Below, one piece after another: positions 8,627 through 34,187 of a DNA stretch of 42,269 nt. Source of the stretch: an uncultured Burkholderiales bacterium. GTDB lineage: Bacteria; Pseudomonadota; Gammaproteobacteria; Burkholderiales; Burkholderiaceae_C. A program made the translations under genes and the position numbers. Positions within the stretch are counted from its first letter, which is position 1; each line of letters begins with the position of its first letter. The notes below the pieces were generated by a model that saw only the letters and a program-made list of their open reading frames with translations, did no database searches and was not told the DNA's origin. The stretch covers positions 1-42,269 of the forward strand of contig CADEDE010000019.1 in the NCBI GenBank assembly GCA_902825995.1, written 5' to 3'.

Positions 8627-10066
8627 TCATGGGTCGCCGGGCCACGGCGCCATCAGGGCCAGCCACAGCAGCTTGTCGAATTCGGGCGCAAAGCGCTCGA
8701 TGATGGTTTCGGGATCGGGGCACATCCTGGCATCGGTGATCAGGCCGAACTGGACGCCGCCGGCGTACGACAGGATCGAAACGCCGATGCCGATGTCGCC
8801 CGACTGCGGTACCCAGAACATCACCTGCTTGACCGTGCGGCCGCAGAAGCGGATCGGTTCTTTCGGGCCCGGCACATTGGTCATCACGGCCGTCGCCTTC
8901 TTGGCGAACAGGCCGGTGATGACCGATTGCACCGGCTTGACCATCAGGCCCGACAGCGCCAGCAGGCCCATGGTCAGCAGCGGCTGGTAGCTGCCCTTCA
9001 GCTCGGCCATGCGCGCGCGCACGGCGACCAGGCGCTCGATCGGATTGGCGATGCCGATCGGCAGCACCAGTGGCACCAGGCCGAAGCGGTTGCCGAGCTG
9101 GTAGGCCTGGTCCAGCGGACGCAGGTTCACCGGCACCATCGCGCGGATGTGCTGGCCGGCCGGGTCGTCGCCCTTGCCGCGCAGGTAATCGCCGATGGCG
9201 CCGGCCACGCAGGCCAGCAGCACATCGTTGATCGAAGCGCCGAGCACCTTGCCGACGGCCTTGACTTCATCCAGCGGCAGCGGCTCGCCCCAGGCCACGC
9301 GCTTGCCCGGCGTGGCGCGGCCCTTCAACCGCGTCGTTGAATCGTCGGCCATCAACGCCAGCGCGGCCACGTCGCTGACGACCTGCGCGCCCACGCGCGC
9401 GGCATCGAGCGAGCCGGCCAGCGGTGCGCCGGGCTGCAACAGCATGTCCAGGCCCTTGCCGACGCCCTGCCCGGTCAACCCGATGGCCTTGACGGCGAGT
9501 TCGGTGAAGGGCTTGATCACCACATCGGAAAGCCAATCGCCACCGTCTTCATCGGCGGCCTCGCGCGGCTTTCGCGTCGGTGGCGCCTTGCCGCCATCGG
9601 CGATCGACAGCATCACCGAAATCAGCGCGATGCCGTCGCCGATGCAATGGTGGATGCGCGAGACGAGCGCGCTGTGCTCGCCGTCCAGGTCTTCGATCAG
9701 GTGAAACTGCCACAGCGGACGCGAGGGGTCGAGCGGCGTGGCGGCGAGTTCGGCGACGCGGCGCTTCAGGGCATCGAGCGGCGCCTGGCCCTGGCGCGGG
9801 CGCAGGGTTTCGCGCTGGACATGGTGGCCGATATCGAAGGCGGTATCGGTCACCCAACTCGCGCCCGCGGCATCCTCCACCACCTTCTGGCCGAAGCGCC
9901 GGTAGGCCAGCAGCCGACCCTCGACGCGCGCCTGCAACTCGGCCAGCCCGAGCCGGGGCGCGAGCAGCCAGATGCCGACGATCATCATCAGGTTGGCATC
10001 GGTGTCCATGCGCAGCCACGCGGTATCGACGCGCGACATGCGTTCTGATTGGGTAGCAGCGCTCAT
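8627..10066 (-). CDS. Wax ester synthase / diacylglycerol acyltransferase (WS/DGAT) family O-acyltransferase
   Basis: Transfers acyl groups from acyl-CoA to fatty alcohol or diacylglycerol, making wax esters or triacylglycerol as storage lipid, at the cytoplasmic membrane. The 479-residue protein has the catalytic HHxxxDG motif as HHCIGDG (H139, H140, D144, G145). It also has the second conserved motif N280-D281 in ASINDVLLACVAGA and the C-terminal VMTNVPGPKEPIRFCG segment of the DUF1298/WES domain. The ATG at 10066 has no strong ribosome-binding site; a second ATG at 10039 is possible. It diverges from the acyl-CoA-binding protein gene across 93 bp, consistent with linked acyl-CoA handling. 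Confidence 0.9.
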   Translation of the reverse strand: MSAATQSERMSRVDTAWLRMDTDANLMMIVGIWLLAPRLGLAELQARVEGRLLAYRRFGQKVVEDAAGASWVTDTAFDIGHHVQRETLRPRQGQAPLDALKRRVAELAATPLDPSRPLWQFHLIEDLDGEHSALVSRIHHCIGDGIALISVMLSIADGGKAPPTRKPREAADEDGGDWLSDVVIKPFTELAVKAIGLTGQGVGKGLDMLLQPGAPLAGSLDAARVGAQVVSDVAALALMADDSTTRLKGRATPGKRVAWGEPLPLDEVKAVGKVLGASINDVLLACVAGAIGDYLRGKGDDPAGQHIRAMVPVNLRPLDQAYQLGNRFGLVPLVLPIGIANPIERLVAVRARMAELKGSYQPLLTMGLLALSGLMVKPVQSVITGLFAKKATAVMTNVPGPKEPIRFCGRTVKQVMFWVPQSGDIGIGVSILSYAGGVQFGLITDARMCPDPETIIERFAPEFDKLLWLALMAPWPGDP

Positions 10067-19230: not shown

Positions 19231-19860
19231 TCAAAGCCAGCCGCGTCGGCGCAATTCGCCTTCGCATTGCGCCGCATTCTGGAAATGCAGCGCCTGCCAG
19301 CCGCAGGCCTGCGCAGCTTCGATATTGACCGGGTGGTCGTCGATGAACAGCGCGTTGCCGAGATCGAGCGCGAGCACGTCGCGGGCATGCTCGAACATCG
19401 CGCGCTGGGGCTTGATCAGGCCGACACGGCTCGAGAATATGCGCGCTTCGAACCAGGCGAAGCAGGCATGCTGCGCCTCGAGGTGGTCGGCGTAGGGGCC
19501 GGGCATGTTCGACAGCAGCGCGAGCCGGTGGCCGGCCGCGCGCACGCGCTCGATCAGGGCCATGCTGGCAGGCATCGGTTGAATGTGCCCGGGAATCGCC
19601 GCGATCAATGCCCGCAAGCCTTGCACCGGGTAGCCGGTGCGCGCGGCGATGCGCGCGGCCAGTGCCTCCGGTTCGATGCGTCCGAGGTCGAACTCGGCCC
19701 AGTCGCCGCCAGCGGCGAAGGCCTGGAACACATTGGCCGCAACCGCCTGCGCGCTGGCGTCGTCATGCGCCAGTGTCGGCAGCACATCGCGTATCAGTTG
19801 CCGCGGTTGCCAATGCACGACCACGCCACCGATGTCGAAGACCAGCGTACGGCGCGTCAT
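19231..19860 (-). CDS. HAD-superfamily phosphatase (YihX-like)
   Basis: A 209-residue haloacid-dehalogenase-type phosphatase. Motif I is VFDIGGVV with nucleophile D9; the usual second Asp (D-x-D) is glycine, as in the FDxGG/FDLGN subclass that includes E. coli YihX, an alpha-D-glucose-1-phosphatase (recalled). Motif II is LLSNMP, motif III K in GLIKPQRAMF, and motif IV FIDDHPVNIEAA. Its ATG overlaps the pgi stop codon (ATGA), so it is translated from the tal-pgi transcript. A sugar-phosphate substrate fits the context but is not shown by sequence. Confidence 0.83.
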   Translation of the reverse strand: MTRRTLVFDIGGVVVHWQPRQLIRDVLPTLAHDDASAQAVAANVFQAFAAGGDWAEFDLGRIEPEALAARIAARTGYPVQGLRALIAAIPGHIQPMPASMALIERVRAAGHRLALLSNMPGPYADHLEAQHACFAWFEARIFSSRVGLIKPQRAMFEHARDVLALDLGNALFIDDHPVNIEAAQACGWQALHFQNAAQCEGELRRRGWL

Positions 19861-21452
19861 CGGCGCAGGCGACGCAGCAACTGCGCGGTCGAAGCGTCGA
19901 ACCCGGCGGTGTCGCCCGAGGCCAGGCGCGGCAGCAACTGGTGGGCGAGCGCTTTGCCCCACTCGACCCCCCACTGATCGAAGCTGTTGATCCCCCACAG
20001 TGCGCCACACACGAATACACGGTGTTCGTACAGTGCGATCAGCGCGCCGAGCGAGCGCGGCGTCAGCGCATCGAGCACGAGTGTCGTGCTCGGCCGGTTG
20101 CCGGGGCAACTGCGGTGCGCGGCCAGCGTTCTTGCATCGATGCGCTGGCTGGCGCTGGGCGCGGCTTCGGCCAGCGCCTCGTCGTACGTCTTGCCGAACA
20201 TCAGCGCCCGGCTCTGCGCCAGACAGTTGGCAAGCAGCTGGCTGTGCTGGCCGGCCAGCGCGTGGGCCGGGGTCTTGACGGCGATGAACTCGACCGGGAT
20301 CACATCGCTACCCTGGTGCAGCATCTGGAAGTAGGCGTGCTGGCCGTTGGTGCCCGGCCCACCCCAGACCACCGGACCGGTGGCAAAGGGCAGCGCCTGG
20401 CCCGCCAGGTCCACGCGCTTGCCGCTGCTCTCCATCTCGAGCTGCTGCAGGTAGGCCGGCAGGGACGCCAGCCCCTGGTGGTAGGGTACGACGGCACGGC
20501 TGGTGAAGCCGTGGAAGTTGCGGTACCAGACGTCGAGCAGGCCGAGCAGCACCGGCAGGTTGCGTTCGAGCGGCGCCGCCGCAAAGTGCCGATCCATGGC
20601 ATACGCGCCGGCCAGGAAAGCGCGAAAATTTTCGGCGCCGATGGCCAGTGCGACAGCCAGGCCGATGGCGCCCCACAGCGAGTAACGGCCGCTGACCCAA
20701 TCCCAGAAGCCGAAGATGGTGGCAATGCCAAAGCGCGCCGCAGCCTCGGCATTGGCGGTGGCGGCGACGAAATGGCGTGGTACGTCACGACCGCCCTGGG
20801 CGACGAACCAGTCGCGCGCGGCCTGCGCGTTGGCCAGGGTCTCCGGCGTCGTGAAGCTTTTCGAGGCAACGATGAACAGCGTTTCGGCCGGGTTCAGGCG
20901 GCGCAGTACGCGCGTCAGATCGTGGCCATCGCCGTTGCTGACGAAGTGCAGCGTCAAGCCGCGGTGACTGAAGGCGTCGAGCGCCGGCACGACCAGTTGC
21001 GGCCCGAGGTCGCAGCCGCCGATGCCGATATTGACGATGTGGTGAATGCCGCTGGCCACTGTATTGCGCACGCCTTCGGCGTAGGCCAGCATCGGTTCGA
21101 GAACGCCATGCACCTCGTCGCTGAACAGGCCCTGCCCGCGCGGCGCGCGCAGCGCCGTGTGCAGCACCGCCCGGCCTTCGGTGCCATTGATCGCCTGGCC
21201 AGACAGCATGGCATCGCGGTGCGCTTCGAGTCCGCAATCGCGCGCCAGGTCGAGCAGCAACTTCAAGGTCGCCGTGTCGATGCGATTCTTCGACAGATCG
21301 GCGAAGACCTCGGGCGCCTCGAACGACAGCGCGGCGGCGCGGCCGGCGTCGCGCGCAAAGGCCTCGCGCAGATAGAAATCACGCCCATGCGCTTCGTAGT
21401 GGCCTTGCAATGCAGCCCAGGCTGCGGTTTCATCGCAGCGAAGAAACTTCAC
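19857..21452 (-). CDS. pgi: Glucose-6-phosphate isomerase
   Basis: Interconverts glucose-6-phosphate and fructose-6-phosphate. The 531-residue protein has both family signatures: [15 protein letters not shown] (251-265) and [14 protein letters not shown] (487-500). Catalytic residues are in place: E341 in [10 protein letters not shown]372 in GTNGQHAYF and K500. The sugar-phosphate-binding [15 protein letters not shown] (88-102) is also present. The start is GTG at 21450-21452, overlapping the tal stop codon as GTGA, so translation is coupled. In contrast to the upstream transaldolase, nothing here suggests loss of activity. Confidence 0.95.
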
Positions 21453-22399
21453 TTCAAGCCCTCGACCTGCTTTTCGAGCTGGGCCGCGTCGGCAGCGAAG
21501 GCGCGAATGCCCTCGGCCAGCTTCTCGCTGGCCATCGCATCGTCGTTGAGTGCGTAGCGAAACGCCGGCTCGTTGAAGGTGGCGGCGTGGACCACGGCGC
21601 GGCGCGCCGATTCCGGGTCGAGCGCGCGCCGCAGCGGCGCCTGGCGCGACTGCAGTTGCGCCAGCAGTTCGGGGCCGATGCTCAGCAGGTCGCAGCCGGC
21701 CAGGGCCTCGATCTGGCCCAGATTGCGAAAACGCGCGGCCATGACTTCAGTATCGATGCCGTAGTGCTTGTAATAGGTGTAGATCTGCGCCACCGAGCGC
21801 ACTCCCGGATCGTTGGCGCCGGCCATCGCCGCTTCGTCCCAGGCGGCACCGGCAGCCTGCTTGTGCCAGTCGTGGATGTGGCCGACAAAAGGCGCGACCC
21901 GGGTCACGCCGGCCTCGCCGCAGGCCACCGCCTGACAAAACGCGAACAGCAGCGTCAGTTGGCAGTGGATGCCTTCGTGCTCGAGCGCCTTGGCCGCCTG
22001 AATGCCTTCCCAGGTGGCCGCCACGTCGATCAGCACCCGCTCGCGGCCCATGCCGGCACGCTCGTACAAATCGACCAGGCGGTGCGCACCGGCGATGCTG
22101 CCCGCGGTGTCGAAACTCAGGCGCACATCGACCGCAGTGCTGACGCGGCCGGGCACGATCTTCAGGATCTCCAGGCCAAAGCGCACCAGCACCTCATCGA
22201 CGATGCGATCCAGCGGCCGGCTCTTCCTGGCCGTGACCGCCGCGGCCAACAGCGGCGCGTACTCGGACTGCTGCACCGCCTTCAGGATCAGCGACGGATT
22301 GGTGCAGGCGTGACTCGGCGCAAAGGCGGCGAACTGCCTGAAATTGCCGGTATCGGCAACGATGGCGGTGTGCTGCCTGAGTTGGTCGAGCTGGTTCAT
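21449..22399 (-). CDS. tal: Transaldolase-like protein lacking the Schiff-base lysine (possible pseudoenzyme)
   Basis: A 316-residue TalB-type protein; E. coli TalB is 317. It aligns throughout by eye: VADTG (D16), TNPSLIL (N34), the LTLLFAFCQ core, FRN (phosphate-binding R), LAGCDLL. However, VLIKxASTW of active enzymes reads VLIDVAATW, so the catalytic lysine (TalB K132) is D125. Also changed, in TalB numbering: E96 to A89, N154 to Q147, S176 to A169 and R181 to H174. The frame is intact and coupled to pgi, so it is not a decaying gene. It is probably inactive as a transaldolase, or has a different chemistry or a regulatory role. It diverges from zwf, with a HexR-type site between them. Confidence 0.85.
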
Positions 22400-22507: not shown

Positions 22508-22522
22508 CGTAATTAAATTACA
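22508..22522. promoter_or_regulatory. HexR-type operator upstream of zwf
   Basis: CGTAATTAAATTACA matches the proteobacterial HexR consensus TGTARTWWWWYTACA at all but the first base and contains a 13-bp near-perfect palindrome (GTAATT-A-AATTAC). It ends 13 bp before the zwf ATG and lies within an A+T-rich patch in otherwise GC-rich DNA, between the divergent tal and zwf starts. A TTGTGC at 22491-22496 with TAAATT 17 bp later would place the operator over a -10 element. Repression of zwf by the HexR protein encoded next to it is the simplest reading. Confidence 0.75.
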
Positions 22523-22535
22523 TATTGATGGCTTC

Positions 22536-23993
22536 ATGTCTTTCGATCTTGTCTTCTTCGGCGGCACCGGGGATCTGGCCTGGCGCAAGCTGGTGCCGGC
22601 CCTGTTCCAGGCCTGGCGCCACGGCAAGTTACCCGAAGGCGGGCGCATCCTCGCGGTAGGCCGTCACGAACGCAGCGACGACGAATACCGCCGCTTCATC
22701 GAGGAACGCTTTTGCGACGTCGAGAGCAGCAAGCGCCCGAGCCGCGAAGAGTTTGCACGGTTTGCCGCGCTGTTGCACTACCGCCGCATGGACCTGTCCT
22801 TGCCCGAACATTACGCCGGGCTCAGGCAATGGGTCGATGCGCGCGGCGCCGACACGGTGGTGCTGTACCTGGCGACCGACCCGCACCTCTTCCCGCAGAT
22901 TTGCGCGCAGCTCGGCGCGGTCGGCCTGAACGGCGTCAACGTGCGCGTGGTGCTGGAAAAACCCCTCGGACACGACCTGGCCAGCGCGCAGGAAATCAAC
23001 CGGGTGGTCAGCGCCTCGTTTCGCGAAAGCCAGGCCCTGCGCATCGACCACTACCTGGGCAAGTCGGCAGTGCAGAACCTGACCGCGCTCCGCTTTGGCA
23101 ACGCCCTTTTCGAGCCACTGTGGCGCCGCGAGAGCATCGCCAATATCCAGATCACGATCGCCGAGTCGCTCGGCGTCGGTACGCGCGGCGACTTCTACGA
23201 CCGCACCGGCGCTTTGCGCGACATGGTGCAAAACCACGCCCTGCAACTGTTGACGATGATCGCGATGGAGCCGCCGGCCACGGGCGATGCCGATGCGATC
23301 CGCGACGAGAAGTTGAAGGTGCTGAAATCGCTGAAGCCCTTCACGCCCGAGAGCGTGGACCGCGACGCGGTACGGGGCCAGTACCGCGCCGGGACCATCG
23401 ACGGCCAGGCCGTGCCCTCCTATTTGGAAGAGCTGAAAGTGCCGCCGGGCAGCGCCTGCGAAACCTTTGTCGCGCTGCGCGCCGAAGTGCAGAACTGGCG
23501 CTGGGCTGGTGTGCCGTTCTACCTGCGCACCGGCAAGCGATTGGCGGCGCGCGACGCCCAGATCGTCGTCAACTTCCGCCCGGTGCCGCACCCGATCTTT
23601 GCCGGCGCCGCGCGCGCCAACCAGCTGGTCATCAAGCTGCAACCCGAAGACGGTCTCGAGCTGCACCTGCTGGCGGCCAAAGGCGGGCACACTGCCGCGA
23701 AAATGCCCGAGCAACTGGCGCCGGTGTCGCTCGACCTGGACTTCGACAAAGCCTTCCTCAGCGAGCGTGTCGGGGCCTACGAGCGCTTGCTGCTCGATGC
23801 CATCGGCGGCCGCTTGAACCTGTTCGTTCGCAGTGACGAGCAGGAGCAGGCCTGGCGCTGGGTCGAGCCGATTCTGCAACGCTGGCGCAACGACAGCGCC
23901 GGCCCGCGGCCTTATGCGGCGGGCAGCTGGGGGCCGCCGGCCGCCAGTGCATTGATGGCCCGCGATGGCTTTGCGTGGGCGGAAGAGGAATAG
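22536..23993 (+). CDS. zwf: Glucose-6-phosphate 1-dehydrogenase
   Basis: Oxidises glucose-6-phosphate to 6-phosphogluconolactone with NAD(P)+, the entry step to the pentose phosphate and Entner-Doudoroff routes. The 485-residue protein has the dinucleotide loop FFGGTGDLAWRKL (G9-G12, D13), EKPLG (141-145), and the substrate/catalytic motif RIDHYLGK (D171, H172, K176). DMVQNHALQLL supplies a further catalytic histidine. The ATG at 22536 is chosen because the Rossmann strand starts right after it; upstream codons contain the HexR site. It is followed by hexR 13 bp later. Confidence 0.93.
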   Translation: MSFDLVFFGGTGDLAWRKLVPALFQAWRHGKLPEGGRILAVGRHERSDDEYRRFIEERFCDVESSKRPSREEFARFAALLHYRRMDLSLPEHYAGLRQWVDARGADTVVLYLATDPHLFPQICAQLGAVGLNGVNVRVVLEKPLGHDLASAQEINRVVSASFRESQALRIDHYLGKSAVQNLTALRFGNALFEPLWRRESIANIQITIAESLGVGTRGDFYDRTGALRDMVQNHALQLLTMIAMEPPATGDADAIRDEKLKVLKSLKPFTPESVDRDAVRGQYRAGTIDGQAVPSYLEELKVPPGSACETFVALRAEVQNWRWAGVPFYLRTGKRLAARDAQIVVNFRPVPHPIFAGAARANQLVIKLQPEDGLELHLLAAKGGHTAAKMPEQLAPVSLDLDFDKAFLSERVGAYERLLLDAIGGRLNLFVRSDEQEQAWRWVEPILQRWRNDSAGPRPYAAGSWGPPAASALMARDGFAWAEEE

Positions 23994-24006: not shown

Positions 24007-24870
24007 ATGTCGATGTTGGACCGCGTTCTCGCTGCCCTGCCCGCCCTGCCGCCTGCCGAGCGGCGTGTGGCCAAGCTGGTGCTGGCCGACGCCCGCAGCT
24101 TTGCCAGCCTGCCGATCGGCGAGCTGGCCGAGCGCTCGCAGGTGAGCAAGCCGACGGTGGTGCGCTTTTGTCGCAGCGTCGGCTACGACGGGCTGGCCGA
24201 CTTCAAATTGAAGCTGGCCGGCGTGGTCAACGAAGGCGTGCCCTTCATGCACCGCGCGGTCGATGAAAACGACAAGGCCGGCGACATCATCGTCAAGGTC
24301 ATCGACAACGCGGTCAGCGCGCTGCTGAAGTACCGCAACGATGCCGCGGGGCACGCCTTCGGGCGCGCCATCGAGGCGCTGGCATCGGCCTGCCGCAAAG
24401 GCCGGCGCATCGAGTTCTACGGCGTCGGCAACTCGGGCATCGTGGCGCAGGACGCGCAGCACAAATTCTTTCGCCTCGGCGTCGCCGCCAGTGCCGTCAG
24501 CGACGGCCATGTGCAGCTGATGAGCGCAACCATGCTGCAGCCGGGCGATTGCGCGGTGATCGTCTCCAACTCGGGGCGCAGTCGCGACCTGCTCGACGCC
24601 GCCGAGATCGCGCGGTGCAAGGGCGCGACCACCATCGTCATCACCGCCAGCGGCTCGCCACTGGCCCATGCCTCGAACGGTGTGCAGCACGTGCTGCTGG
24701 CGGCCGACCACCCGGAAGACCACGACCGCTACAGCCCGATGGTGTCGCGGCTGTTGCACCTGGTGATCATCGACATCCTGACCACCGGCGTGGCCCTGCT
24801 CCTGGGTGCCGAGCTGCGGCCGATGCTGGCCGAAATCAAGCGCAACCTGCGCTCGAAGCGCTACGCCTGA
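24007..24870 (+). CDS. hexR: RpiR-family transcriptional regulator HexR
   Basis: A 287-residue DNA-binding regulator. The N-terminal RpiR helix-turn-helix spans about residues 1-76, with the recognition region IGELAERSQVSKPTVVRFCR (38-57). A SIS sugar-phosphate-binding domain follows, with FYGVGNSGIVAQDAQ and VSNSGRSRDLL. HexR proteins repress glucose catabolism genes and are released by KDPG (recalled for Pseudomonas). The linkage to zwf and the HexR-type operator at 22508 support orthology. The ATG at 24007 follows the zwf stop by 13 bp. It is convergent with mlaB and overlaps its end by 10 bp. Confidence 0.9.
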   Translation: MSMLDRVLAALPALPPAERRVAKLVLADARSFASLPIGELAERSQVSKPTVVRFCRSVGYDGLADFKLKLAGVVNEGVPFMHRAVDENDKAGDIIVKVIDNAVSALLKYRNDAAGHAFGRAIEALASACRKGRRIEFYGVGNSGIVAQDAQHKFFRLGVAASAVSDGHVQLMSATMLQPGDCAVIVSNSGRSRDLLDAAEIARCKGATTIVITASGSPLAHASNGVQHVLLAADHPEDHDRYSPMVSRLLHLVIIDILTTGVALLLGAELRPMLAEIKRNLRSKRYA

Positions 24871-29566: not shown

Positions 29567-32500
29567 TCATTGGACCAACTCGCGCCATGAAGTCCTGCGC
29601 CCTGTGGCCGTCGGAGGCGATGGTGGCGGCACATCGTCGGTGCGCGGCACGCCGCGGTTGTCCACCGTGATCGTGATCGTGCGGCCCGTGCCCGCCCCAC
29701 TGCCGGGCAGCTGCAAGGTGACCCAGCTGATACCGACGACCATCGAACCGCCCAGCCAGCGGCCGACGATATTGCCGCCGAGCGTCGAGGGAATCGAACC
29801 GTTGCCGATGTCGAACTGATACAGGTAAGAGCTGCCGCCGGCATCGCAGGCATCGTTGCTCGGGATGTTGCTCGCCACCGTCAGCGTGTTGTGCAGCAGT
29901 TGCATGTCCACGTTGACACGCTCGCCCAGGATCGGCAGGGTCGGCGTGATCAGATCGACGCGCCAGCCGTTACCGGTGGCCCAGTTCACGCCGTAGCGGG
30001 TGACGTCACGCGGCGCATGGGCGTCGGTCGCGTCGGCAGGCAGCGACAAGGTCTGCGCCACTACCGACGCATCGGCATGGACATCGCCCAGCGGCGTATT
30101 GGTCAGCGAATCCTTGATCGCATAGACCGACTGCGTCGCCGTCGAAGCCAGGTCGGTGCTGCCGAGGTATTTGCCGGTGCCGACATAGACCACGGGGTAG
30201 GGACTGCCGCTGTATTTGACCTCGGCCAGCGAGGGCTGCGTGGTGATCGGCTGCTCCACGCCGCCGGCGCTGAAATAGGCCAGGCGCAACGCGGCGCTGT
30301 TCGGCGCCACCAGGTTGTCGGTATCGAAGCGCCACAGGTTGCCCAGCAGATCGCCGCCGTAGAAGCGCTTGGCGGTATTGTCGATTTCAGAATCCACCCA
30401 GGCGTTGATCTTGCCCAGGCCGCTGGGCGTCGTGCTGGTGCCGGCCGGCGTTGTGCCGCTGGTGAAAGTCGGGATATCGAGCACGCGTTCACCGGTGTTG
30501 GCATTGACCATGAACAGGTGGCCGTTGCCATCGCCCGGCGTGATGTTGTTGTAGCCCGAGGTGAATACCACCACCCAGCGGCCGTCGGCACGCTTGGTGA
30601 TGACCGGATTGCCGAAGCTCAGGCCGAGATTGCTGTCGCCGCCGAGGCTGTCGTTGGTGAACTCCCACAGCGGGATCGGGTTGTCGGGGTTGGTGATATC
30701 GAGGGCGTAGTAACCGCGCCCGCCGGCACCCAAGCCGCCGACGAGAATGGTCTTCCAGGCGCCCGGGCTGCCGGGCACATAGATATCGCCGATGACCGGC
30801 GCGCCATTGACGAAATACTCGTGCCGGTAGGCATAGTCCTTGTCGGCCAGGCGGTACATGCGGTCCATCACCATCGACGGCACATAGGCCCACATTTCGT
30901 TGCCCGTGGCACCATTGAAGGCGTGCAACATGCCGTCGTTGGACGCCGTATAGGCGACGCCGGTCCGGCCCGCGCCCGCATTGGTGGCCTTGACGGCGGC
31001 CACGAAGCTGGCATAGCCGTTCTCGGTGTACTTGAACGACGGCTGGCCGGCATAGACCGGCGCCCCGCCGATGATGTCGCCCAGGATGCCGCCGGCGATA
31101 TCGGTATCGGTCGTCACACGCGTGCGGAAAACCGGGTTCGACCCACCGCGCAGGTAGCTCACCATGTCGATGCCCGAGTTGGCGGAGTCCTGTGCAGCGG
31201 CCGCTGCGGCCTTGGCCGCCGCCGTGGCGGTTGTCGGGGCTGCGAGATCGGCGGCATCCGCCGCCGCCTTGTTGGCCGCCAGCGTCGCACACTGCGTCAA
31301 GTTGATGGTCTTGCTGCAAGCGTCGTCGAAGTGGCCGTTCAGGCCGTCCGCACTCAGATTTGCGTGGGTGAAGTCGCGCCGCACGGTCGTGTTGAGGCCT
31401 GCGTTGCGCGTGGCGTAGTAGATATTTCGCGGCGTGCCCGCGTTGACACTGGCCTGCAGCTGCGTCGCCGCGCTCCACACCGGGCCCGAGATGACCCCGG
31501 TCGCCGGATCGATGGTGCGCGCCACCAGGTCGCCGATCCAGAAACCGGACTTGTACTTGGCGATGAAGAGTTTGTTGTCGCCGGCCACCGGTTGCAAGGT
31601 GCTGGCTGCCGCGCCCGAACCCGATCCGGTGGTGGCAATAATCGCCGCCAGCGCGGACGACAGGCTGTCGGCCAGCGAAGTCGGGTCGTTGGCGCTGAAG
31701 TAGCGTCCGCGGCCATTGACGGCGGCGTGCCACAGATCGTCGATTCTTGCGGCCCCCGCCGACGTGATCGCATCCGGCCAGTCTTTGCTGCCCTGCGTGA
31801 TATCGCGGAAGTCGCCGGCCGGCAGCAAGGGGTAGTTCGCCTGGTAGTTCAGCGTGCCGTTGACGCCCATGCCGAGGGTGAAGGTCGTCATGTGCTGGTG
31901 CAGCGCAGTGTCCAGACCGGAGGGGCCGACGTTGTTGAGGCAAACATCGGTCGCGATCCCGGTCGGCGTGCCGTCGAGCGTCGAGGCACAGTTGCCGAGT
32001 GCGGTCGTGCGCAGGTCGGTCTCGTAGTAGTACATCGCCACGTCGGCCAGGCTGTTGGAGTTGCCGCCGCTGCTGGTGGACTGGCATTCCCTGGCCGTAT
32101 CGACGGTATAGCTCGGCGCGACCGACTGCGCGACCGCCGTACACGATGGAACCAGCGACAACGCGGTCCAGGCGGTATAGCGGCATTCGTTGATGGCCGA
32201 TACGGCGCAGGTCGCTGTGTTCGTCCATGTGCCGTATGCGGGAGGCAAGGCGGTGCACTGCGTTGCGGTGCCGACGGTATAACTGGGTCCAGTCGATTGC
32301 GCGACAGGCGTGCAGGAAGTCGTTGTCGTGTTGACCGGCGCTGTGTACCGGCACTCCTCAGTCGCGGAGGCCGTGCAGGTTGCCGTATCCGCCCATGCGC
32401 TGTAGGTCGGCGAAACGCACTGCGTCGCCGTGGCGACGGTGTGGGGCGACGTGGTGTCTTGCGCCTGTGCCGTGCAAGACGGGGTGTCGGCAAAGGCCGA

Positions 32501-34162
32501 CCATGACGTGTACTGGCAGGCGATACCGTTGCCAGTCCAGGTGGTGCCATTCGAAGTGCCCGTGCTGTTGTTTACCGTACACGTGGCAGCGTTCGTCCAG
32601 GCACTCCAGGTCGCGCTGTACCGGCACCGCCGACGGCTGCTGCCGTTGTTGTCCCAGGTGCATGACGCAACGGGCGTCCAGCCGGTCCATGTGGAGCCAG
32701 AGTTGCTCGAGGTGCTGGCCTCCAAATTCCTTGATCTCGACTGCAGCGAGCTGGTGCTCGTCTGCCAGGAGCCCGTGACGGTACGGCCCTGCAAGGTGGT
32801 CGTACCCGTCGTCCATTGGGGAGTGACGGACCGCTGTTGCAGCGTGCTCGTGCGCTCCTTTACGGTGGTGACCGTGTTGTCCTTCATCGGCCGCGGCGTT
32901 CCGCCGCCGTCGCGCTGCCCGACATCGTTGCGGGCAAGATCGTCGGGTCCGTAGCTGCTGCTGCCGTTGCCGCTGACCTCGGTGTCGGTATTCCAGTAGC
33001 CGTCGGTGGTGAGAATGGTGTAGTTGCGCTGACAGGAATACTGCACCGGGTCATAGCTCTGCGCGCTGCCGTCGGCCTGGGTGGCCTTTTTGGCGAAATA
33101 GCGGCCGGCCTTGGACAAGGCGCCGCGCAGCGGCGTGTAGCTGTCGGGGTCGGCGGCGAACAGCTCGGTATAGAACTTGTCCTTCTGGCCGCCCGCGCCC
33201 GAAGTGAATGCGGCCACGTCGAGAAATTTGCTGCCGCTCACGCGCTCGGAGCTGATCGTACTGAAACCCACGCGGTAGCCGTCGCCGATCGGGGCGAAGG
33301 CCCGGCTCGCGGCGGTGCGCATCGTCAGGCTGCGGGTGCGGTTGTAGGTGTACCAATTGCGGTAGTTCTGGAGGTCGCCGCTGGTCGGCTTCATCACCAC
33401 CTTGGTGAACTTGCCGAAGCCAGGCGTGCTGCCGACGCTGCTGTTGCATTCCTGGTAGAAAGCGGTCGAGGTAATGAGGCCGCTGCTGTTGTAGGTGTAG
33501 CCCAGGCGCGGCTGGGTGCTCGAATAGGTGTAGTAGAAGGGCCGGTTGTCGCCGTTGGCCAACCGTGCATTGGTCATCGTGCCGCTGCCGGCGGTCTCGG
33601 TGACGTTGACGGTGACGGTGCGGGAGCCGCTGTTCCAGGTGCTCACCGTGCCGACCATCAAGATGCTGTCATCGTCGTTGCTGTACAAAGTGACGATATC
33701 GCCAGCCGCGTAACTGTTGGAGCCGCTCACGACAATGCCCACGGTCAGACCTGTCGCAATCGTCAGGCTCGTCGGCGTCGTCGTGCGAATCGAGCTGAGG
33801 GCGGTTGGCGAGGGAAATGTGAAGCTGCCGAGCGGGTAGGTCGTACCGTCGTAATAGACCGGCAAGGCATAGGTGGTCGCGGGGTTGTAGGCCAGGCCGT
33901 TGCACTGCGAGGCGTAGAAGCCGTACTTGCCGCTGCCGAAGTTGGCGTCATCTGGCATGTAGGCCCGATCCATGCTGCCCGAATCGTCGAGCACGAACAT
34001 CAGATTGGGCTTGACCAGCGTGGCCGACGACGTGACCAGCGGCACCTGGGCAATATCGGTAGGCGCGGCCAGGGCGTTGGCGCCAAGTCCGAGCGCGGCC
34101 ACCAGCAGCAACGCCGCCCGTGCCGGATACCAAGCCTGGGTGTCGAATCGATTCTGGTTCAT
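29567..34162 (-). CDS. pilY1: Type IV pilus tip/biogenesis protein PilY1 with a Cys-rich repeat insert
   Basis: A 1531-residue secreted protein of type IV pilus assembly and adhesion. Signal peptide to about residue 33 (GANALA/AP). A von Willebrand A-like start has the MIDAS motif D59-x-S61-x-S63 (VLDDSGSMD). The C-terminal PilY1 beta-propeller lies after about residue 1000 (GNEMWAYVPSMVMDRM, GGLGAGGRGYYALDITNPDN, VVFTSGYNN). Between them, about residues 430-485 hold three 16-residue tandem repeats and about 487-695 a Cys/Trp module array. P. aeruginosa PilY1 is about 1160 residues, so this one is enlarged. The ATG at 34160-34162 has GGGGAGA upstream. It lies 25 bp after pilX. Confidence 0.92.
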   Translation of the reverse strand: MNQNRFDTQAWYPARAALLLVAALGLGANALAAPTDIAQVPLVTSSATLVKPNLMFVLDDSGSMDRAYMPDDANFGSGKYGFYASQCNGLAYNPATTYALPVYYDGTTYPLGSFTFPSPTALSSIRTTTPTSLTIATGLTVGIVVSGSNSYAAGDIVTLYSNDDDSILMVGTVSTWNSGSRTVTVNVTETAGSGTMTNARLANGDNRPFYYTYSSTQPRLGYTYNSSGLITSTAFYQECNSSVGSTPGFGKFTKVVMKPTSGDLQNYRNWYTYNRTRSLTMRTAASRAFAPIGDGYRVGFSTISSERVSGSKFLDVAAFTSGAGGQKDKFYTELFAADPDSYTPLRGALSKAGRYFAKKATQADGSAQSYDPVQYSCQRNYTILTTDGYWNTDTEVSGNGSSSYGPDDLARNDVGQRDGGGTPRPMKDNTVTTVKERTSTLQQRSVTPQWTTGTTTLQGRTVTGSWQTSTSSLQSRSRNLEASTSSNSGSTWTGWTPVASCTWDNNGSSRRRCRYSATWSAWTNAATCTVNNSTGTSNGTTWTGNGIACQYTSWSAFADTPSCTAQAQDTTSPHTVATATQCVSPTYSAWADTATCTASATEECRYTAPVNTTTTSCTPVAQSTGPSYTVGTATQCTALPPAYGTWTNTATCAVSAINECRYTAWTALSLVPSCTAVAQSVAPSYTVDTARECQSTSSGGNSNSLADVAMYYYETDLRTTALGNCASTLDGTPTGIATDVCLNNVGPSGLDTALHQHMTTFTLGMGVNGTLNYQANYPLLPAGDFRDITQGSKDWPDAITSAGAARIDDLWHAAVNGRGRYFSANDPTSLADSLSSALAAIIATTGSGSGAAASTLQPVAGDNKLFIAKYKSGFWIGDLVARTIDPATGVISGPVWSAATQLQASVNAGTPRNIYYATRNAGLNTTVRRDFTHANLSADGLNGHFDDACSKTINLTQCATLAANKAAADAADLAAPTTATAAAKAAAAAAQDSANSGIDMVSYLRGGSNPVFRTRVTTDTDIAGGILGDIIGGAPVYAGQPSFKYTENGYASFVAAVKATNAGAGRTGVAYTASNDGMLHAFNGATGNEMWAYVPSMVMDRMYRLADKDYAYRHEYFVNGAPVIGDIYVPGSPGAWKTILVGGLGAGGRGYYALDITNPDNPIPLWEFTNDSLGGDSNLGLSFGNPVITKRADGRWVVVFTSGYNNITPGDGNGHLFMVNANTGERVLDIPTFTSGTTPAGTSTTPSGLGKINAWVDSEIDNTAKRFYGGDLLGNLWRFDTDNLVAPNSAALRLAYFSAGGVEQPITTQPSLAEVKYSGSPYPVVYVGTGKYLGSTDLASTATQSVYAIKDSLTNTPLGDVHADASVVAQTLSLPADATDAHAPRDVTRYGVNWATGNGWRVDLITPTLPILGERVNVDMQLLHNTLTVASNIPSNDACDAGGSSYLYQFDIGNGSIPSTLGGNIVGRWLGGSMVVGISWVTLQLPGSGAGTGRTITITVDNRGVPRTDDVPPPSPPTATGRRTSWRELVQ
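32075..32700 (-). repeat. Cys/Trp module array inside PilY1
   Basis: Encodes about seven degenerate modules, each with two cysteines. The opening is like W-x2-W/F-x4-C (TWTGWTPVASC, TWSAWTNAATC, SWSAFADTPSC, YSAWADTATC). Closings alternate between a short C-x-x-S-A-x-x-E-C-R-Y-T form and a longer C-T-x-x-A-Q-S-x-x-P-S-Y-T-V-x-T-A-x-x-C form. The W-x2-W followed by paired cysteines is reminiscent of thrombospondin type 1 repeats, but the match is by eye only. Confidence 0.7.
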
Positions 34163-34187
34163 GTTGTATCTCCCCCTCATGCGACGT

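Follow-up and report, generated by a model that had tools for sequence, protein, structure and literature searches.

The locus described here raises the question of whether a full-length homologue of transaldolase, a textbook class I aldolase, can still be a transaldolase when its Schiff-base lysine is replaced by aspartate, and what has kept its gene open if it cannot. The gene lies in a window (the whole stretch of DNA analyzed, 42,269 nucleotides) from an uncultured Burkholderiales bacterium, whose own genome (G000, a draft of 2.82 Mb in 140 contigs with a listed completeness of 100%) was searched alongside those of its relatives. The features of the locus are collected in Table 1.

Table 1. 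Features of the tal locus, in window coordinates
Feature	Position	Strand	Basis
tal homologue of 316 aa with a lost active site	21449..22399	-	frame and alignment
GAC (Asp) as codon 125, where TalB has its Schiff-base lysine (K132)	22025..22027	-	
pgi, whose GTG start codon overlaps the stop of tal	19857..21452	-	frame, profile, alignments
zwf (glucose-6-phosphate dehydrogenase)	22536..23993	+	profile, codon model
hexR-like RpiR-family regulator	24007..24870	+	start estimated, ORF from 23965
HexR-like palindrome TGTAATTTAATTAC in the zwf–tal intergenic region	22509..22522	.	sequence motif
Intergenic block ATGATGCA..GTTTCTT..GGTCAA	22473..22501	-	

Active-site residues of the Tal homologue

The 316-codon tal frame contains no stop, and the genome copy is identical to the window copy. 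A second tal carrying the lysine was sought in the same genome by profile search, and this gene was the single match to PF00923. The protein aligns with PF00923 over profile positions 1–284 of 285 (253.6 bits), indicating full-length homology to the TAL_FSA domain. It falls below the NCBI equivalog cut-off for talAB (TIGR00874; 392.2 versus 396.2 bits), which was passed by all seven relatives scored (of 30) with 427.9–474.3 bits.

We aligned the window protein with 30 relatives, to which it is 49–77% identical, and with the E. coli TalB sequence. The relatives are the best-scoring Tal matches for which loci were available, drawn from 53 other genomes that matched; the tal of G012 was joined to them later, and among the weaker matches of other genomes only a broken copy in G007 was read. 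In TalB numbering, T33C, E96A, K132D, N154Q, S176A, R181H, and S226R are unique to the window protein, all seven residues being intact in 30/30 relatives (the best 30 of 53), and G224 is changed as well (G224A). D17, N35, T156, F178, and R228 are retained. The alignment thus agrees with the original prediction, which had listed E96, K132, N154, S176, and R181 as changed and D17, N35, T156, and R228 as kept; that list was right but incomplete, having missed T33C, S226R, and G224A. Neither D125 nor A89 (window numbering) is shared by any of the 30 relatives.

When the protein was aligned with PDB chains without that E. coli TalB sequence, a lysine stood opposite D125 in 5/5 chains shown, one of which bears the name transaldolase B. 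The segment around D125, VLIDVAATW, has no lysine among the neighboring residues that could serve as an alternative. Codon 125 is AAG in 13/13 relatives of the codon alignment, so GAC is two base changes away, matching the predicted minimum of two for Lys to Asp. At K125D, T32C, and N147Q (window numbering), the codon differs by two bases from the closest one observed in a relative. A sequencing, assembly, or binning artefact might be suspected in a draft of 140 contigs, but is very improbable with 12 conserved codons changed, three of them by at least two bases, in an open frame with an ω of 0.22, and with adjoining hexR and zwf genes that are most like those of the same genus.

We take E96 and N154 to be catalytic in TalB, and S176 and R181 to belong to its phosphate site. 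Judged from its sequence, in which the lysine and these four residues are all replaced, the window protein has very likely lost classical transaldolase activity, as originally proposed. The replacements could also be read as a new active site, in which D125, H174, C32, D17, N35, T156, Q147, and R223 would support a perhaps lysine-independent or metal-dependent reaction. Several of them are indeed polar or charged (Lys to Asp, Arg to His, Ser to Arg, Thr to Cys, and Asn to Gln), and for three of them two bases have to change. However, E96A and S176A are plain losses, and a single-sequence structure prediction of the protein (pLDDT 39.8) lends no structural support, so that we consider new catalysis improbable.

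Selection on tal and its neighbors

The dN/dS estimate proposed with the original prediction was run with codon models of 13–16 genomes per gene, which were fitted without G012 and without broken or partial genes (G007 for tal, G021 and G025 for zwf). The tal branch of G000 has the highest ω of 14 terminal branches (0.219). For this branch ω = 1 is rejected (2ΔlnL 37.9), and its ω exceeds the background weakly (2ΔlnL 4.0, uncorrected over 14 branches). At conserved columns the ω of G000 is 0.145 versus 0.009–0.033 on six other branches, and at variable columns it is 0.302 for a background of 0.254. With a branch ω of 0.22, tal is not an old pseudogene.

Of the 88 tal columns invariant in the 30 relatives and TalB, 12 are changed in the window protein; the next highest counts are 4, for a relative (L003), and 8, for TalB. 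The positions of the changes were compared with sets of presumed active-site residues, in a test that is partly post hoc. A 13-residue active-site set that we assembled holds 7/12 changed versus 6/76 unchanged columns (p = 1.5e-4), and the nine residues of the original prediction hold 5/12 versus 4/76 (p = 0.0019). Within three residues of the 13-residue set, 11/40 columns are changed, whereas farther away it is 1/48 (p = 5.7e-4); at margins of two and four residues, p is 0.001 and 0.0017. For the nine-residue set, p lies between 0.0008 and 0.011 across margins (far columns changed 4/59 and 3/53 at margins of two and three, with p = 0.011 and 0.0094). These results suggest that constraint was lifted more at the active site than at fold positions.

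A pseudogene is marked by whole-sequence relaxation, stops, and frameshifts; tal has an ω of 0.219 and no stop. What it does show is the mark of a pseudoenzyme, in that catalytic residues are lost while the rest of the fold, judged here from sequence conservation, is maintained. Plain neutral decay would mean that tal has been unconstrained in the recent part of the branch and is open by chance. Under equal neutral drift ∼1.3 stops are expected in the frame, with a probability of 0.28 for none, and, if indels arise at a rate of 0.05 per substitution, 2.3 of these, with a probability of 0.10 for none; the intact frame is thus weak evidence of selection. Decay would also fit with Tal being missing or broken elsewhere in the clade and with the Entner–Doudoroff (ED) genes not found in G000 (see below). 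Against it stands the position of 11 of the 12 changes within three or four residues of the 13-residue set, an argument that weakens with the nine-residue set. We therefore regard neutral decay of the gene as unlikely, although a brief recent neutral phase could have occurred.

The GTGA overlap that had been predicted between tal and pgi is real. Like tal, pgi has changed at conserved sites, with 15/214 conserved columns changed in G000 versus 1–8 in the others and a conserved-column ω of 0.051 versus 0.004–0.016 on seven other branches (the G025 branch, of runaway length, was not used). S147C, V174G, G254S, S261G, N343S, and L498W fall at positions identical in all 15 relatives, and the replacement occurs in none of the five PDB PGIs shown. 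The pgi changes show no clustering at the active site (p = 0.1–0.37), and R256, E341, H372, and K500, which we take to be catalytic, are retained. With 718.7 bits the protein is well above the NCBI isomerase cut-off (492 bits), and Pgi is probably still an isomerase by these measures. E365G (WGE to WGG) was considered as a lost catalytic glutamate and rejected, as WGG is present in 2/5 PDB PGIs; the catalytic glutamate, which precedes the GQH histidine by 31 residues, is E341 and is kept.

Part of the tal excess reflects branch length, because zwf is also highest in G000 when departures within the genus are counted (28/395 versus 4–16) and the four sisters group apart from G000 in the tree (support 79). 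The corresponding counts are 25/212 versus 5–18 for tal, 37/353 versus 12–20 for pgi, and 18/402 versus 7–22 for tkt, where G000 is not the highest. Genome-wide relaxation in G000 is not supported by the four genes compared: the conserved-column ω values of zwf and hexR lie inside the range of other branches, and the numbers of conserved columns changed in tkt (5/287 versus 2–24 in other genomes) and in the phosphofructokinase (PFK) gene (3/140 versus 0–2 in the genus) are ordinary.

Upstream of tal, the palindrome and the adjoining conserved block are retained. The block recurs, in varied form, upstream of tal in the relatives printed, and the four sisters have a similar, less symmetric TGTAAT..GTTAC element. 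The HexR site of the original prediction exists as a palindrome, which we assume to be a HexR site from its motif; the hexR-like gene scores below the NCBI HexR cut-off (234.8 versus 296).

If the protein were a pseudoenzyme under selection for a non-catalytic role, such as that of a sugar-phosphate sensor or partner of Pgi, this would account for the fold positions held (1/48 far columns changed), for the retention of D17, N35, T156, F178, and R228, for the frame, pgi coupling, and upstream blocks kept, and for the fast change of pgi at conserved sites. However, with S176 and R181 replaced, and given the roles assumed above, poor binding of the old ligand is to be expected, and the state is seen in one species among those searched, which gives little ground for assuming long-term retention. 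Such a selected role, which is a sub-case of the explanation favored below and shares its probability in part, seems rather doubtful. Somewhat less doubtful, and still tentative, is the broader reading that the sole tal copy is kept folded for a non-catalytic or new role, with the coupled Pgi changing alongside. The pseudoenzyme of the original prediction fits the pattern insofar as the changes cluster at the active site, fold positions are kept, and ω is well below 1; the sensor or scaffold role, or new aldol chemistry, that it suggested is a possible but speculative reading.

Metabolic setting of the probable loss of activity

G000 has no match to KDPG aldolase (Eda) and none to the PF02685 type of glucokinase, and both have a match in 4/4 same-genus genomes. 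Its one PF00920 (Edd/IlvD) gene is IlvD by rank, whereas the three sisters searched have 4–5, one of which lies within ∼2 kb of eda in each; Edd was accordingly not found in G000 by the PF00920 search. As the genome is a draft of 140 contigs, Eda, Edd, and glucokinase genes could sit in assembly gaps. KDPG is the ligand of HexR and, without Edd, could not be made. The claim that tal is still embedded in the normal regulon therefore stands only in part, given that Eda, a PF02685 glucokinase, and a second PF00920 gene were not found in this genome.

In addition to zwf, G000 has gnd, rpe, and one full transketolase match. Among four genomes searched, gnd was present in G000 and G003 and not found in G001 and G002. 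The PFK of G000 has motifs that we take to be of the PPi type and matches the diphosphate-PFK profile with 420.4 versus 273. With this set of enzymes transaldolase looks dispensable, since the oxidative pentose phosphate route and transketolase could supply ribose 5-phosphate and erythrose 4-phosphate, and the PPi-type PFK makes a sedoheptulose bisphosphate bypass possible. In clostridia, PPi-PFK acts on sedoheptulose 7-phosphate, as reported in PMC7029132. The Tal-free pentose phosphate pathway outlined there resembles the present case in its PPi-type PFK and differs in that G000 still has a tal gene and that gnd gives it an oxidative route. Replacement of Tal by Calvin-cycle enzymes is not supported, as RuBisCO has no match in G000; it has none in G001 either and was found in G002, G004, and partly in G003.

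We think it more likely than not that a TalA/B-type transaldolase lost catalysis in one species after its central carbon metabolism was remodeled. In this sequence of events, the glucose/ED arm (Eda, Edd, and PF02685 glucokinase) would have been lost first. Ribose 5-phosphate would then come from Zwf and Gnd and erythrose 4-phosphate from transketolase, and PPi-PFK with aldolase could turn over sedoheptulose phosphate. Transaldolase would thereby have become redundant and the constraint on its active site lifted. The fold stays constrained, which may be due either to a non-catalytic job, as in a young pseudoenzyme, or to the need for a protein that is still produced to avoid misfolding while the gene decays; the data fit both. 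The most likely cause of the lost catalysis is that transaldolase became redundant once the glucose/ED arm had gone, and the genes not found offer a plainer reason than those of the original prediction. Neither gnd nor PFK forces the loss of tal, since gnd (G003) and PFK (G001–G003; PPi motifs read in G001) occur together with an intact tal.

Tal is also absent elsewhere, as 6/60 genomes lack a PF00923 match. In G009 (L053), zwf and pgi are separated by ∼250 bases that hold no tal, and weak PF00923 matches are found on another contig. In the one-contig genome of G007 (L055, 2976–3913), tal is split into two overlapping frames by a frameshift or an error. G021 (L044) has two zwf pieces of ∼50 residues beside an intact tal-pgi pair and a divergent hexR.

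Rarity and relation to known systems

We scanned the genome_contigs collection (84,980 genomes, from which the window's own genome records were possibly left out) for TalB-type motifs without the lysine. The pattern was exact and required a codon not starting with A, and so misses Asn, Thr, Ser(AGY), Arg(AGR), Ile, and Met; with AAR at the lysine codon it matches 29/30 relatives, a sensitivity that applies to this order. One non-lysine locus besides the window was found. It is a fragmentary Tal from a Lysobacteraceae MAG, located where a contig ends (L032, 6151–6193), with Lys changed to Gln and the visible active site otherwise intact; this fragment is doubtful and could be an error. Viral contigs as carriers of tal relatives are not supported, because the motif scan of them was empty and none of 13 stretches matching the peptide pattern was confirmed as a relative. 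In the literature, no inactive or pseudo-transaldolase was described among the best matches.

The window protein shares full-length homology with TalA/TalB (TIGR00874 and PF00923; E. coli TalB and human TALDO1), as well as the operon place with pgi and zwf and the retained D17, N35, T156, and R228. In contrast to these enzymes, it lacks the Schiff-base lysine and has E96, N154, S176, R181, T33, and S226 replaced. The E96A mutant of transaldolase B (PDB code 1i2o) has the same alanine at E96 and is matched above 1onr (297.5 versus 295.2 bits), but keeps K132, whereas the window protein has several natural active-site losses. Pseudoenzymes in general, as characterized in the reviews PMC5106787 and PMC10211241, have lost a catalytic motif in a fold homologous to that of an enzyme; the motif of the window protein is likewise lost, and here in the sole copy of the genome.

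A single-copy, intact tal without its lysine may represent an enzyme on its way from being used to being lost. The case lets one ask whether the retirement of a pathway can lead to a moonlighting protein or only to slow death. Annotation by PF00923 score alone would credit this species with a reaction that it probably lacks.

Elsewhere, the window encodes a 1537-amino acid PilY1-like protein (29567–34180, minus strand) that is divergent even within the genus and a wax ester synthase/diacylglycerol acyltransferase homologue (8627–10066, minus strand).
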